From positions 1-21,979 of IMG/VR virus record IMGVR_UViG_3300006738_003910: 21,979 bases of DNA. The stretch is one strand, 5' to 3'. Below are positions 6,398 through 21,979 of the stretch, in pieces. The position numbers and the translations under genes were made by a program. The notes below the pieces were generated by a model, which saw only the letters and a program-made list of their open reading frames with translations, was not told where the DNA came from and did no database searches. The number at the start of each line of letters is the position of its first letter. The stretch's first letter is position 1. This DNA is from a virus.

Positions 6398-6937
6398 ATG
6401 AAGACAAAAGGAGTGCTCCACCACACGGCGGACACTACACAGTCGCCTCAGTACGACAAGGTGTGGGAGTATCACAACTCTGGAGCTGGGGGCAAGTGGC
6501 CCGAAGGTTTTGGCATACAGTACACATACTTCATTGAACGAGACGGCATGATTATTCAGGGAAGAGAAGAACACGAAACAACATGGCACGCAGGAAACTG
6601 GCTTCTCAACAAGCAGTCAATCGGGATATGTCTTGCGGGAGATTTCACAAGAGAAGACCCAACGATGGCACAACTAAAATCACTTAAAGACCTACTGATA
6701 GACATACAAAGAAGGCGAGGAATACCCAATGACAACATATATCCCCACAGAGAAGTCCGCGCGACTCGCTGTCCGGGGACTGATTTCTTGAGACTTATAG
6801 AAGAAAAACTACCCAATAAAACATTAAAGCAGAAAATTGTCCAGCTACAAAAAGGTGCAGATAGAAGCAAAGAACACAACCCCTCACGATACAGGCGCAT
6901 TATGAGGAAACTAAAACGTCTACTTAGGCTACAATAG
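6398..6937 (+). CDS. N-acetylmuramoyl-L-alanine amidase (Amidase_2/PGRP fold endolysin)
   Basis: 179 aa. Cleaves the amide between MurNAc and L-Ala in peptidoglycan to release progeny. Visible motifs are VLHHTAD with zinc ligand H8, YTYFIERDG (residues 42-50), TWHAGN with H64, and YPHREVRATRCPG with H117 and C125 as the other two zinc ligands. This is the H..H..C arrangement of T7 lysozyme and the PGRP family. The catalytic domain ends near residue 138. The last 40 residues are strongly basic (SRYRRIMRKLKRLLRLQ), a tail that could help it bind or disrupt the envelope. There is no signal peptide, so release needs a holin, and small membrane proteins flank it on both sides. ATG abuts the previous stop; a TGTTATCAT sequence sits 8 nt upstream. 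Confidence 0.9.
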   Translation: MKTKGVLHHTADTTQSPQYDKVWEYHNSGAGGKWPEGFGIQYTYFIERDGMIIQGREEHETTWHAGNWLLNKQSIGICLAGDFTREDPTMAQLKSLKDLLIDIQRRRGIPNDNIYPHREVRATRCPGTDFLRLIEEKLPNKTLKQKIVQLQKGADRSKEHNPSRYRRIMRKLKRLLRLQ

Positions 6938-6956
6938 CCACATTCCCCCTATTCTT

Positions 6957-7196
6957 ATGTTGACCAGTCCAGTAACAATCGCAGTCACAGGTACAGCTAT
7001 CCTCCGAAGGCTCGGCCTCGAAGGTGCAAAGTACAGTATGATTGCCTCCATTGTCCTCGGTGGACTCGCTACTTATTTCACCATCAATTATCCAGAAGGA
7101 TTTGAGATGGCTACTACATACCTTGTTGGTCTTGAGGCCACAGGTGGTGTTGCTTTCCTGTACGACGTACTTGGAAAGGTGAAGAAAGGACGCTAA
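6957..7196 (+). CDS. Small two-helix membrane protein, holin candidate
   Basis: 79 aa, with a hydrophobic stretch at residues 27-42 (SMIASIVLGGLATYF) and a second, weaker one at 51-72. The C-terminus is basic (GKVKKGR). Size, topology and position right after the amidase fit a class II holin, which would form the membrane lesion that lets the amidase out. There is no sequence motif that proves this. The start is preceded by a C-rich tract (ATTCCCCCTATTCTT) and no Shine-Dalgarno. It is the last gene of the plus-strand lysis block, followed by 65 nt with no clear gene before the end of the reverse-strand resolvase. Confidence 0.6.
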   Translation: MLTSPVTIAVTGTAILRRLGLEGAKYSMIASIVLGGLATYFTINYPEGFEMATTYLVGLEATGGVAFLYDVLGKVKKGR

Positions 7197-7762: not shown

Positions 7763-7796
7763 ATGAGAGAAGGAAGTTTGTGGCTAGTATCATAGC

Positions 7797-15814: not shown

Positions 15815-16292
15815 CTCTTCGACTTGAACGCCGCCTAGAAGGAGAAGCACTTATGGCTGGCCTAGATCTTAATGCACGCTTTCTGCTGGCTGCCCTCATT
15901 TTCCTTACGGTCTTTGCTGCTTTTGTAGCCTTTCTCCCTTGTGACTTAGCTTTCCTGTTGGCTGCCATCGCCCTAGCCTTTGCGCTCACACCTACGCTTA
16001 CCCTTGCTTTTGTTTTCTGCACAGCTTCCTTCGATTTGAAATGCCTGACGTTCTGTGTCAAGAACCTAGATTTATCTTTCGCCATTGTCTTTGGTAAATT
16101 CCTAAGCCAATCTGCATGCTCTCTCTTTCGCTTCCGCTCAGCCGCATCCGCATCAGCTCTCTTCTTCCTAATAACTCCAACCTTCTTCGCTGCCTTAGTT
16201 GCCTTTTTTCCCTGACTCTTAGCCCTCCTATTAGCCACATGCTTTCTAGCATTTGCACGAACGCCTGTCGTATAACCTACACCTTTTGGCAT
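15738..16292 (-). CDS. Histone H1/protamine-like basic protein with internal duplication
   Basis: 184 aa from MPKGVGYTTG; the ATG at 16331 lies upstream of the predicted -10 box, so 16292 is preferred. The protein is dominated by Lys, Arg and Ala. Two related units occur: residues 12-38, with ANRRAKSQGKKATKAAKKV, and residues 104-130, with ANRKAKSQGRKATKAAKTV. A mixed region with the only aromatic/hydrophobic core (DWLRNLPKTMAKDKSRFLTQ) separates them. Residues 131-183 are Arg/Ser-rich and protamine-like. No known domain is visible. DNA condensation in the capsid, or binding host or viral DNA, is inferred from composition. TATAAT lies 6 nt before the ATG, so the mRNA may be leaderless. The antisense hydrophobic plus frame (15775-16215) is an artefact of Lys/Ala codons. 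Confidence 0.7.
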   Translation of the reverse strand: MPKGVGYTTGVRANARKHVANRRAKSQGKKATKAAKKVGVIRKKRADADAAERKRKREHADWLRNLPKTMAKDKSRFLTQNVRHFKSKEAVQKTKARVSVGVSAKARAMAANRKAKSQGRKATKAAKTVRKMRAASRKRALRSRPAISASPSRRRSSRRDDRKIHKKRRARPTAKRRPSRDTQY

Positions 16293-16298
16293 ATCGCT

Positions 16299-16326
16299 AT
16301 TATACCTTGGCAGGAGTATAATACAA
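16299..16326 (-). promoter_or_regulatory. Minus-strand promoter of the histone-like gene
   Basis: Reading minus, TTGTAT (16326-16321), a 16-nt spacer, then TATAAT (16304-16299). The start codon at 16292 follows after 6 nt, about where transcription would begin. It overlaps the divergent plus-strand -10 box. Confidence 0.5.
16317..16322 (+). promoter_or_regulatory. Plus-strand -10 box of the 116-aa gene
   Basis: A perfect TATAAT lies 7 nt before ATG 16330. No good -35 is seen at 16-18 nt upstream. The position implies a leaderless or nearly leaderless mRNA. CAGGAG at 16311-16316 is a possible but distant ribosome site (13 nt from the ATG). Confidence 0.4.
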
Positions 16327-16329
16327 TCC

Positions 16330-16680
16330 ATGGCTATGCAGCCTGAAGATGTGGAAAGGCTAAGAGAACAGCATCAGGATACGAAAGTACCACCGCACGC
16401 GGGCTTGGAGTTAGCGCAGTTGTTAGCCCAAATACCCGAAGGCGACGTTGAGCTTCTTACTGAAATCGCAACGACATACGCGCGGCAATACAGAGTGGTC
16501 TTTGGTACTGAACTACACAAAATACTCCTAAACGAAATCAACAGGCATGAGAAGGATAGATTCGATATTAGGCAGACTTACTTCCACGCACTTTTTTTCG
16601 CGTGCATAGACGATGGAAAAACGGTCTACCCTACAAACTTTACCAAGATGCTCAATGACGAGGATGGAGAGCCCCTGTAA
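16330..16680 (+). CDS. 116-aa hypothetical protein
   Basis: Not recognised. Soluble, mixed alpha composition: an acidic N-terminus (MAMQPEDVERLREQHQD), a helical middle (DVELLTEIATTYARQYRVVF, then LHKILLNEINRHEKDRF) and an acidic end (NDEDGEPL). An alternative start is ATG 16336. I prefer 16330 because it sits 7 nt after TATAAT. Its end overlaps the next microgene by 17 nt. It is divergent from the histone-like gene, sharing a compact two-way promoter, and is the first of a plus-strand run leading to replication functions. Confidence 0.65.
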   Translation: MAMQPEDVERLREQHQDTKVPPHAGLELAQLLAQIPEGDVELLTEIATTYARQYRVVFGTELHKILLNEINRHEKDRFDIRQTYFHALFFACIDDGKTVYPTNFTKMLNDEDGEPL

Positions 16681-19872: not shown

Positions 19873-19898
19873 GTTACTATGGTGGTAGGTAATAAGAC

Positions 19899-19914
19899 CC
19901 ACTAATTATAGTGG
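19899..19914 (-). promoter_or_regulatory. Operator-like palindrome containing the -10 box of the 53-aa gene
   Basis: The 16-bp sequence has perfect 6-bp arms, CCACTA-ATTA-TAGTGG. Read on the minus strand it contains TATAAT (19910-19905). A weak -35 TTGCGT lies 16 nt upstream at 19932-19927. Protein bound here would block the promoter. Confidence 0.45.
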
Positions 19915-19955
19915 TACCTGCCAAAAACGCAACGCGGTTTTTTGGCTATACCACT
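19910..19955. repeat. Long imperfect inverted repeat / possible bidirectional terminator
   Basis: AGTGGTA (19910-19916) pairs with TACCACT (19949-19955). GCCAAAAA (19920-19927) pairs with TTTTTGGC (19939-19946). A small CGC/GCG stem lies at the tip. The A-tract and T-tract flanking a GC tip look like a two-way terminator, but the structure also overlaps the minus-strand promoter. Confidence 0.45.
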
Positions 19956-19974
19956 CAAACCCAGCGCGGCTCTC

Positions 19975-20003
19975 TTGACAACAGCTTACTCTCTTGTTAC
20001 ACT
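19975..20003 (+). promoter_or_regulatory. Strong sigma70-type promoter
   Basis: TTGACA (19975-19980), exactly 17 nt, TACACT (19998-20003). Predicted start is near 20010. No ORF follows for over 500 nt, so its product is probably non-coding RNA or an origin primer. Confidence 0.6.
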
Positions 20004-20009
20004 GCGTCG

Positions 20010-20095
20010 TGTCCGTTGCGCCGCTCGCAAGCAACGCGGCGACGGCAACGCAGGTAACAAAAGTGAGTTAAATATTTTATAATATATTTTTTAAC
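20010..20095 (+). ncRNA. Candidate structured non-coding RNA
   Basis: It begins where the upstream promoter should start. CCGT and CGCCGC (20013-20024, with a TG bulge) pair with GCGGCG and ACGG (20036-20045), a stable 10-bp stem. Alternatively CGTTGC (20014-20019) pairs with GCAACG at 20045-20050, or GTTGC with GCAAC at 20031-20035. An AT-rich stretch with a T-run closes the segment at about 20092. Mutually exclusive folds are typical of regulatory RNAs. Transcription is unproven. Confidence 0.35.
20067..20095. repeat. AT-rich tract bounded by GTTAA/TTAAC
   Basis: 29 bp with A/T throughout apart from one G and one C at its ends, bounded by inverted GTTAA (20067-20071) and TTAAC (20091-20095). 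Could be a duplex-unwinding element or the weak terminator of the preceding candidate RNA. Confidence 0.35.
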
Positions 20096-20219
20096 AAAAC
20101 ACATCAAAACAGCTCATACATGACGTACAACAGGTTTAGCTCTTATTTTGTCGTGCGTATGAACGGCTCTATGTTATATATGTTACTACGCCGTCATGGA
20201 ACCTGAGGGGGGAATGGGG

Positions 20220-20241
20220 GTGGGTGCTCTTGTGCACCCAC
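20220..20241. repeat. Perfect 8-bp hairpin
   Basis: GTGGGTGC, loop TCTTGT, GCACCCAC. No T-run follows on the plus strand, so it is not a standard terminator. The same GCACCCAC octamer recurs at 20501. Confidence 0.5.
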
Positions 20242-20270
20242 ATAATAAAAGGATTGTTTACTATTATATC

Positions 20271-20365
20271 GTATGCCTATGGCATACACGCATGGCGTAC
20301 CTATGAGTACGCACGCATGGTGTACCTATGGGTACGCACGACAGCATGGGGTGTGCTACGCACAC
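20271..20365. repeat. Array of dyad repeats with two 25-bp iterons
   Basis: Two head-to-tail 25-bp copies lie at 20288-20312 and 20313-20337 and differ at 2 of 25 bases. Each contains a dyad around CCTATG: GCGTAC..GTACGC and GTGTAC..GTACGC. On the left is GTATGCC-TAT-GGCATAC (20271-20287), on the right GTGTG-CTACG-CACAC (20351-20365). The spacing and shared core suggest binding sites for an initiator or repressor. Too short and irregular for CRISPR. Confidence 0.65.
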
Positions 20366-20384
20366 GCTAGTTAGATGCGAATGA

Positions 20385-20413
20385 TTGACAAGTGGCACGA
20401 TATGTGGTATGAT
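20385..20413 (+). promoter_or_regulatory. Near-consensus sigma70-type promoter
   Basis: TTGACA (20385-20390), 17 nt, TATGAT (20408-20413). Predicted start is near 20420, giving a leader of about 118 nt before the 30-aa ORF at 20538. It lies just right of the iteron array, which could regulate it. Confidence 0.65.
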
Positions 20414-20537
20414 GTATGAGGTGGGGCAAGAGGGGCACGCACCCATGTAATTTTATACCAGAAGCGCACCCCCGAGCAAGCCAACAGCAAACACCAGAGC
20501 GCACCCACTAGCCTGCTAATACCCATACCAACACCAC

Positions 20538-20630
20538 ATGTACAAATACATTATACCTATTGCAGCCTACGCAATAGGCTACGTCCTAGCTCATTACTAC
20601 GACATCATCATCATTCCGCTAGTGTATTAG
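20538..20630 (+). CDS. 30-aa single-pass membrane microprotein
   Basis: Reads MYKYIIPIAAYAIGYVLAHY and ends DIIIIPLVY. It is hydrophobic throughout, with GY and AH helix-packing residues, so almost certainly membrane-inserted if made. It is the only ORF after a near-consensus promoter, behind a 118-nt C-rich leader with three CGCACCC copies. It overlaps the convergent small-terminase-like gene by 20 nt. No Shine-Dalgarno. Roles such as superinfection exclusion or membrane-linked regulation are possible but unsupported. Confidence 0.45.
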   Translation: MYKYIIPIAAYAIGYVLAHYYDIIIIPLVY

Positions 20631-21231: not shown

Positions 21232-21260
21232 TTGACACTGACAAGCGCGCATGGTACAAT
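21232..21260 (+). promoter_or_regulatory. Consensus promoter of the right-end microgene operon
   Basis: TTGACA (21232-21237), 17 nt, TACAAT (21255-21260). Start near 21267, giving a leader of about 22 nt that is mostly the TACCCTTTCCAA element. Confidence 0.7.
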
Positions 21261-21274
21261 TAAAGCCACATTCC

Positions 21275-21286
21275 TACCCTTTCCAA
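21275..21286 (+). promoter_or_regulatory. TACCCTTTCCAA leader element, copy 1
   Basis: Embedded in ATTCCTACCCTTTCCAAGC, 2 nt before ATG 21289. It takes the place where a Shine-Dalgarno would be. Confidence 0.6.
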
Positions 21287-21288
21287 GC

Positions 21289-21465
21289 ATGTTTATACCA
21301 AGATTATTCAACGACAACCGCGAGACCGCCGAGCTTGTAGCAGTACCAGTGAAGCGTAAGAAAATAATCACTTGGCTACCATGTCCCGAGTGCGGAAAAA
21401 ACATCAGTACCGAGACAAAGCAGCGAATTGGCTCATGCCTACCATGCTTCCATAAATACGACTAA
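21289..21465 (+). CDS. 58-aa zinc-ribbon protein
   Basis: Reads MFIPRLFNDNRETAELVAVP, a basic VKRKK stretch, then LPCPECGKNISTETKQRIGS and CLPCFHKYD. Two CxxC knuckles form a zinc ribbon. The frame is open upstream to 21190, but that part spans the promoter, so 21289 is the start. It is the first gene of a plus-strand operon with conserved TACCCTTTCCAA leaders. Probably a nucleic-acid or polymerase-binding small protein; function unknown. Confidence 0.7.
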   Translation: MFIPRLFNDNRETAELVAVPVKRKKIITWLPCPECGKNISTETKQRIGSCLPCFHKYD

Positions 21466-21489
21466 ATCCTTTCTTCATTCAATCGTTTT

Positions 21490-21501
21490 TACCCTTTCCA
21501 A
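21490..21501 (+). promoter_or_regulatory. TACCCTTTCCAA leader element, copy 2
   Basis: Within GTTTTTACCCTTTCCAATC, 7 nt before ATG 21509. No promoter is seen directly upstream. Confidence 0.6.
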
Positions 21502-21508
21502 TCATTTT

Positions 21509-21586
21509 ATGATTACACCCGAAGCCCTAGCGCAAATGCTTGCGCTTGACGAACTAGAGTCAAGCGAGCGCATGTTAGAAGCGTAA
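21509..21586 (+). CDS. 25-aa acidic microprotein
   Basis: Reads MITPEALAQMLALDELESSE and ends RMLEA. It is a short amphipathic acidic helix. Length alone would not support it. The conserved leader just upstream, identical to those of its two neighbours, does. Its stop is followed by 74 nt rich in CCCGAG before the next gene. Confidence 0.45.
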   Translation: MITPEALAQMLALDELESSERMLEA

Positions 21587-21649
21587 AGCCCACCACCCGA
21601 GTACGCGCCCGAGCTAACCCCCGAGCGCGTATCTCTTTTTATTCATTCC

Positions 21650-21661
21650 TACCCTTTCCAA
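21650..21661 (+). promoter_or_regulatory. TACCCTTTCCAA leader element, copy 3
   Basis: Within ATTCCTACCCTTTCCA; the last A of the element is the A of ATG 21661, so spacing to the start is zero. Confidence 0.6.
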
Positions 21662-21979
21662 TGCAACCGAACTTTTTCGACCGCGATAGCTACTCAATCC
21701 CGACGGTACAACGCGCCCGAGAGATTGCCGTAGCTTCGCCTTGTGTATCGCTAGTGAAGCAAGACGGAAAGCGCAAGGCATACTTGCACCTACCGCACGC
21801 GCCCGAGGTAGAAATTACCGACACCGAGCAATTTTGCAGTAGCCTACACTTTGAACACCGTTTTGACATATCATCGAACGTCAAAGCGCAATACACGAAC
21901 AGTGAACACTATCATTTTCCGAGCAATACACGCGAGATGCAAAACTTGTTTGGAATTGTGTTCAAGAGTGTTAATTGGC
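21661..21979 (+). CDS. Unidentified protein, 3' partial
   Basis: Open from ATG 21661 to the window edge, 106 residues seen. Begins MQPNFFDRDSYSIPTVQRAR. The middle contains KQDGKRKAYLHLPHAPEVEI, and the visible end EMQNLFGIVFKSVNW. Mixed alpha/beta, with many His and aromatic residues, soluble. No family recognised. The conserved leader and continuous frame make it a real gene. It is the third member of the right-end operon. Confidence 0.65.
   Translation, partial: MQPNFFDRDSYSIPTVQRAREIAVASPCVSLVKQDGKRKAYLHLPHAPEVEITDTEQFCSSLHFEHRFDISSNVKAQYTNSEHYHFPSNTREMQNLFGIVFKSVNW

Follow-up and report, generated by a model that had tools for sequence, protein, structure and literature searches.

A pyrimidine-rich 12-mer repeated at the start codons of three small viral genes as a possible Shine-Dalgarno-independent leader element

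Introduction

Cluster K mycobacteriophages carry the start-associated sequence (SAS), GGGATAGGAGCCC, a 13-bp consensus with an AGGAG core, which is present in 11–19 copies per genome, is retained in related phages and is suspected to play a role in translation initiation (Pope et al. 2011, PMC3203893). Another 13-bp repeat, the scattered L5 stoperators of cluster A mycobacteriophages, takes part in the regulation of transcription (PMC3203893). In Beggiatoaceae, Cyanobacteria and Bacteroidetes, TAACTGA repeats have been described, for which S1, Csp or CsrA were proposed as binders (MacGregor 2015, PMC4679880). The RegA operators of phage T4 are unstructured and, in many early genes, lie on the AUG or immediately 5' to it (PMC3014915).

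Unstructured start regions are reported to be necessary and sufficient for initiation independent of Shine-Dalgarno (SD) sequences, and a large survey revealed no general motif replacing the SD (PMC3121790). In phyla with few SD genes, leaderless or S1-linked signals have been reported (PMC5397173). For the choice of starts by ribosomes without SD pairing, an exact SD-free sequence at successive starts constitutes a compact natural test of whether sequence, beyond unstructuredness, can mark a start codon. If such a sequence were the site of a regulator, it would suggest that the genes of an early operon are translationally controlled as a set.

Results and Discussion

Three exact copies at consecutive start codons

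The window, i.e. the whole stretch of DNA analysed (21,979 nt), is a linear viral fragment ending at 21979. The following genes were assigned outside the region of interest:

window: LamG-like gene, assigned by reading of the ORF
window: amidase gene, predicted
window: gene of a 1670-aa protein
window: DnaB-type helicase gene
ATG 7762, minus strand: RuvC-like resolvase gene

The right end of the window is organised as follows:

start 21165, minus strand: predicted small terminase subunit gene (terS), near the right end and divergent from the three-gene operon
21232–21260, plus strand: strong sigma70-like promoter TTGACA-17-TACAAT (11/12), divergent from terS
21269–21286, plus strand: element copy 1, CATTCCTACCCTTTCCAA, ending 2 nt before ATG 21289
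21289–21465, plus strand: ORF1, 58 aa, with a CPxC/CxxC zinc-ribbon-like motif; Pfam matches weak and sub-threshold (E 0.015–0.046)
21484–21501, plus strand: element copy 2, CGTTTTTACCCTTTCCAA, ending 7 nt before ATG 21509
21509–21586, plus strand: ORF2, 25 aa, MITPEALAQMLALDELESSERMLEA; own frame best by codon usage
21599–21640, plus strand: intrinsic-terminator-like hairpin GAGTACGCGC/GCGCGTATCTC, followed by TTTTT; −16.5 kcal/mol
21644–21661, plus strand: element copy 3, CATTCCTACCCTTTCCAA (18 nt identical to copy 1), overlapping ATG 21661
21661–21979, plus strand: ORF3, at least 106 aa, open at the contig end, without a family match

An earlier note on this DNA had described identical 12-mers at the starts of three small genes, and this is borne out: TACCCTTTCCAA occurs three times exactly, at 21275–21286, 21490–21501 and 21650–21661, always on the plus strand. 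Further exact copies are absent from both strands of the 22-kb window; occurrences inside genes or away from starts, on whose rarity the note had made its proposal depend, are thus not seen for the exact 12-mer in the fragment. Allowing up to two mismatches adds just four sites, which are scattered over the window. The spacing had been given as 0–7 nt before an ATG. Every copy is indeed next to an ATG, with 2 nt between the 12-mer and ATG 21289 and 7 nt between it and ATG 21509, but the third copy overlaps its start (−1 nt), with its final A doubling as the A of ATG 21661.

TACCCTTTCCAA is the sole 12-mer with at least three occurrences in the window, both strands counted. Among 200 dinucleotide shuffles of the whole window, a single one gave rise to a 12-mer in triplicate on one strand; for the last 979 nt, this happened once in 2000 shuffles. 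By codon usage the own frame beats the other two forward frames in all three ORFs; the margin is clear in the 25-aa ORF but weak in ORF3 and in the 58-aa ORF, and in the latter one reverse frame scores about equal to its own. A coding repeat was rejected as an explanation of the element: copies 1 and 3 read FLPFP in the frame of the ATG, but copy 2 lies in a different frame. Upstream of copy 3 the frame is open, but neither ATG, GTG nor TTG is available in it as a start.

Local duplication, in which a leader was copied recently together with small early genes and its sequence need only be G-poor and unstructured, is an improbable origin of the repeat. It would be in line with the location of all three copies within one 387-nt stretch at the contig end, with the identity of copies 1 and 3 across 18 nt and with the common acquisition of small genes and regulatory cassettes by phage early regions, e.g. 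the PeSL cassettes of T4. However, the shared block has sharp ends, similarity stopping abruptly on both sides, and neither spacers nor coding sequences are duplicated. Moreover, copy 2, which matches 15 of the 18 positions, retains exactly the 12-nt core and differs in the 6 nt upstream of it. Judged from the sequence, the sharp ends and the variable flank of copy 2 mildly favour selection, but as no relatives were found, selection and recent duplication are inseparable.

Base rate among viral loci

In order to obtain a base rate, a sample of 213 viral loci (2.27 Mb; 212 loci and 2.25 Mb without the window) was scanned for 12-mers shared by at least three positions that lie up to 20 nt upstream of an ATG opening 25 codons or more. 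Six of the 213 loci, the window included, were positive. Four (L139, L178, L199 and L212) look like coding-sequence repeats, judged from the close spacing of the positions, and in L211 the shared 12-mer is an SD-type sequence, GGAGAAAGGAAA. A second SD-less, non-coding case was not found among the 212 other viral loci (2.25 Mb). Because the known SAS of mycobacteriophage Adephagia was recovered as a positive control, the scan detects this kind of element.

GGAGAAAGGAAA is found identically in front of four ATGs of L211, at 9047, 11092, 11799 and 12564 (plus strand), three of which are followed by a similar GATGGATGA start; by its sequence, this repeat of another viral contig is a putative SAS-like element.

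Single occurrences of the 12-mer were attributed to chance. Other viral contigs with the 12-mer beside an ATG hold one copy each, rarely before a plausible gene start, and contigs of cellular genomes hold one copy per locus among the matches listed.

Comparison with described elements

The cluster K SAS is the closest analogue. The present element is not a member of this group and, by analogy, may work similarly. Like the SAS, it is a short asymmetric repeat located a few nt before the ATGs of small, apparently not tightly packed non-structural genes. It shows a single orientation, all three copies lying on the plus strand with their genes and none on the minus strand, and the 12-mer is absent from the other genes of the fragment, including lysis and probable virion genes. 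However, in contrast to the SAS, TACCCTTTCCAA is pyrimidine-rich and lacks an AGGAG or SD core, which is reflected in anti-SD duplex energies of −6.5 kcal/mol for the SAS and +3.5 kcal/mol here. Three copies in this fragment compare with the 11–19 per cluster K genome. SAS genes are more than 50 bp away from the upstream gene; the gaps here are 43 and 74 nt, and the first copy follows a promoter.

The TAACTGA repeats and the RegA operators are weaker parallels. The former share with the element a position shortly before start codons and a setting in which canonical ribosome-binding sites are seldom found, but represent directly repeated heptamers of cellular genomes, with another sequence and arrangement. 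T4 RegA operators are A+U-rich and loosely conserved and extend over the AUG together with a poly(A) tract 5' to it, whereas the element is C+U-rich and exact; an A+U-rich, AUG-spanning site is absent, and only copy 3 touches the AUG. The variable spacing to the ATG (2, 7 and −1 nt) leaves room for a repressor-type site, and is easier to reconcile with a repressor that occludes the start than with an anchor for the ribosome. An RNA operator, at which a phage- or host-encoded regulator, either a RegA-like RNA-binding protein or a small RNA, would switch the operon as a set, could also account for an exact conservation of 12–18 nt with sharp ends, which goes beyond the demands of leader composition, and for the lack of structure and the position on or against the AUG, both of which are features of T4 RegA sites. 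We consider such an operator unlikely: an RNA-binding regulator or RegA-like protein was not recognised among the scanned proteins of the window, which derive from an incomplete genome, and the search of the window for an antisense partner gave nothing closer than the scattered two-mismatch sites.

Lambda cosB and the L5 stoperators are examples of asymmetric sites that are repeated close to terS or between genes. With this precedent, and with the predicted terS start 110–485 bp away from the three copies, the element could act at the DNA level, either as an operator or as a pac/cos-type packaging repeat, bound by a repressor or the small terminase. Unlike the scattered stoperators, though, every copy is situated at a start codon, at most 7 nt from the ATG despite room elsewhere in the gaps. 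Furthermore, a DNA site has no need for the G-poor pyrimidine bias that is common to distant leaders (see below), and we regard this explanation as quite improbable.

Promoter and terminator-like hairpin

The earlier note's statement that only the first copy has a promoter nearby was confirmed, TTGACA-17-TACAAT being the sole sigma70-like site found in the region. The hairpin between the 25-aa ORF and ORF3, which the note had overlooked, begins 12 nt past the stop codon of the 25-aa ORF, and of 200 shuffles of the surrounding 107 nt only 3 fold equally well or better. If the hairpin terminates transcription, ORF3 would need read-through. The 25-aa ORF could then encode a leader peptide, and the ribosome terminating at its stop codon would block the hairpin, in a layout resembling that of leader-peptide attenuators.

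Alternatively, the element might be an antitermination site of the boxA/nut type that lets polymerase pass the hairpin. Copy 1 lies just past the promoter and copy 2 ahead of the hairpin, and 7 of the 12 bases agree with an rrn boxA consensus. Yet this match is weak, copy 3 is located downstream of the hairpin and the leader folds show no boxB-like hairpin following copy 1, which makes antitermination very improbable.

SD pairing and leaders across the fragment

In agreement with the proposed absence of SD sites from the three genes, anti-SD duplex energies at their starts range from +2.8 to +3.7 kcal/mol, the least favourable values in the window, with a background median of −2.3. These unfavourable energies exclude anti-SD pairing of TACCCTTTCCAA itself. 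The three genes are, however, not exceptional in lacking an SD, as had been implied, because starts throughout the fragment lack an enrichment of SD sequences: a duplex of −6 kcal/mol or below is found at 1 of 22 starts versus 11% of random 19-mers.

A −10 box is located 5–9 nt upstream of 4 of the 22 starts, compared with 2.3% of all ATGs (P = 0.0015; with some start and leader groups defined after inspection, P values are given as a measure of strength and not as clean tests). The four boxes observed, 6–8 nt from the start codon, suggest from sequence that the respective genes give rise to leaderless mRNAs. Several genes begin 0–2 nt from an upstream stop codon, and may therefore be translationally coupled. 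At 16280–16335, the ATGs of a divergent gene pair are each 6–7 nt away from their own TATAAT box, an arrangement of apparent back-to-back leaderless promoters.

Promoters with a true leader were recognised at 6957 (plus), 7762 (minus), 19872 (minus) and 21289 (plus). Apart from that of copy 1, the leaders are:

6936–6956, plus strand: related promoter-driven leader AGCCACATTCCCCCTATTCTT, before ATG 6957
7763–7785, minus strand: related promoter-driven leader of the RuvC-like gene, AGCCACAAACTTCCTTCTCTCAT
19873–19894, minus strand: G-poor leader TATTACCTACCACCATAGTAAC, before ATG 19872, with a −10 box TATAAT 32 nt upstream

All four contain a single G in their last 22 nt, and three (6957, 7762 and 21289) are pyrimidine-rich. 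In these three, AGCCACA is located 0–3 nt past the −10 box and is followed by a C/T-rich tract. AGCCACA coincides with the predicted transcription start at 6936 (plus), 7785 (minus) and 21264 (plus), two of these sites reading AGCCACATTCC. In the five leader-bearing genes, the leaders are richer in pyrimidines than the 17 other starts (Mann-Whitney P = 0.0005, with groups that were formed once the sequences had been inspected) and hold 0–1 G in 22 nt, a G count shared by 4.5% of all ATGs. For the element, the pyrimidine fraction of the 22 nt is 0.73–0.82, with 0–1 G. A fold of 0 kcal/mol was obtained for the first leader, and the minimum-energy folds of the other leaders leave the element unpaired. 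Within the operon, copies 2 and 3 mimic a promoter-driven leader at places without a visible promoter.

In these respects the element resembles SD-independent leaders (Scharff et al. 2011, PMC3121790) and sites of S1-dependent initiation: an SD is lacking, structure around the AUG is weak and a pyrimidine-rich tract lies upstream. The earlier interpretation accordingly stands in part, namely in the association with start codons, the SD absence and the fit of a pyrimidine-rich unstructured leader to SD-independent initiation. Unlike the three genes, however, genes with SD-independent leaders share no general sequence motif in surveys (PMC3121790).

The element as a possible SD-independent leader

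With somewhat less than even confidence, we favour a start-associated leader sequence that acts at the mRNA level, independent of an SD and free of structure. The phage appears to be adapted to a host initiating translation largely without SD pairing, since several of its genes look leaderless, several abut upstream stops and the recognisable leaders, of a predicted 15–28 nt, are short and G-poor. Within the operon, the gaps of 43 and 74 nt are too wide for coupling of a start to the preceding stop, and the uncoupled genes consequently each carry their own G-free, pyrimidine-rich and unstructured copy against the ATG. Such a copy would keep the start region open and, we infer, recruit the 30S subunit, plausibly via S1 or a similar pyrimidine-binding function. 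The repeat at the three genes is thus best read as the sequence-conserved form of the SD-independent unstructured leader of this phage.

Several points weigh against a leader. The spacing is unusual for a ribosome-positioning signal and speaks mildly against a rigid one, and just three copies are present, all within 387 nt at the contig end. A general lack of structure needs no 12 invariant bases, so that the composition of the element is explained but not its exact identity. Identity over 12–18 nt requires either recent copying or a reader of the sequence, which could be the 30S subunit/S1, a phage RNA-binding protein or a DNA-binding protein. The invariance of the 12 bases might accordingly reflect an SD-free, sequence-specific initiation element, i.e. 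a conserved pyrimidine motif of 12–18 nt that substitutes for the SD in the phage of an SD-independent host and is read by a dedicated ribosomal or phage factor; this stronger version of the leader is conceivable but doubtful.

Relatives, host and other features of the fragment

A related phage was not found in the collections and genome samples searched. Scans of viral contigs with the 1670-aa protein and ORF3 yielded no relatives, and the helicase query gave one distant match. Among 80 viral loci matched with a RuvC alignment, none held other genes of the window except for weak helicase matches, and tblastn against phage records returned just distant helicase, TerS and RuvC matches. The search for a host by means of phrog_28077 comprised 1907 genome searches, in five phylum samples of 339–396 genomes each, centred on actinobacterial, Patescibacteria, cyanobacterial, verrucomicrobial and planctomycete genomes, and 12 single genomes; it gave no match, but neither did the controls, so that absence is unproven. 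An Rfam search revealed nothing relevant. The genome may extend past the contig end, where further copies of the element would be expected.

About 700 nt without a convincing gene (approximately 19900–20610) contain a 25-nt direct repeat (20287 and 20312) together with promoter-like sites, and are a possible origin or packaging region. Finally, CCCGAG occurs six times on the plus strand between 21385 and 21802, with five of the six copies between 21596 and 21802; some are located in the terminator-like hairpin and some in ORF3.
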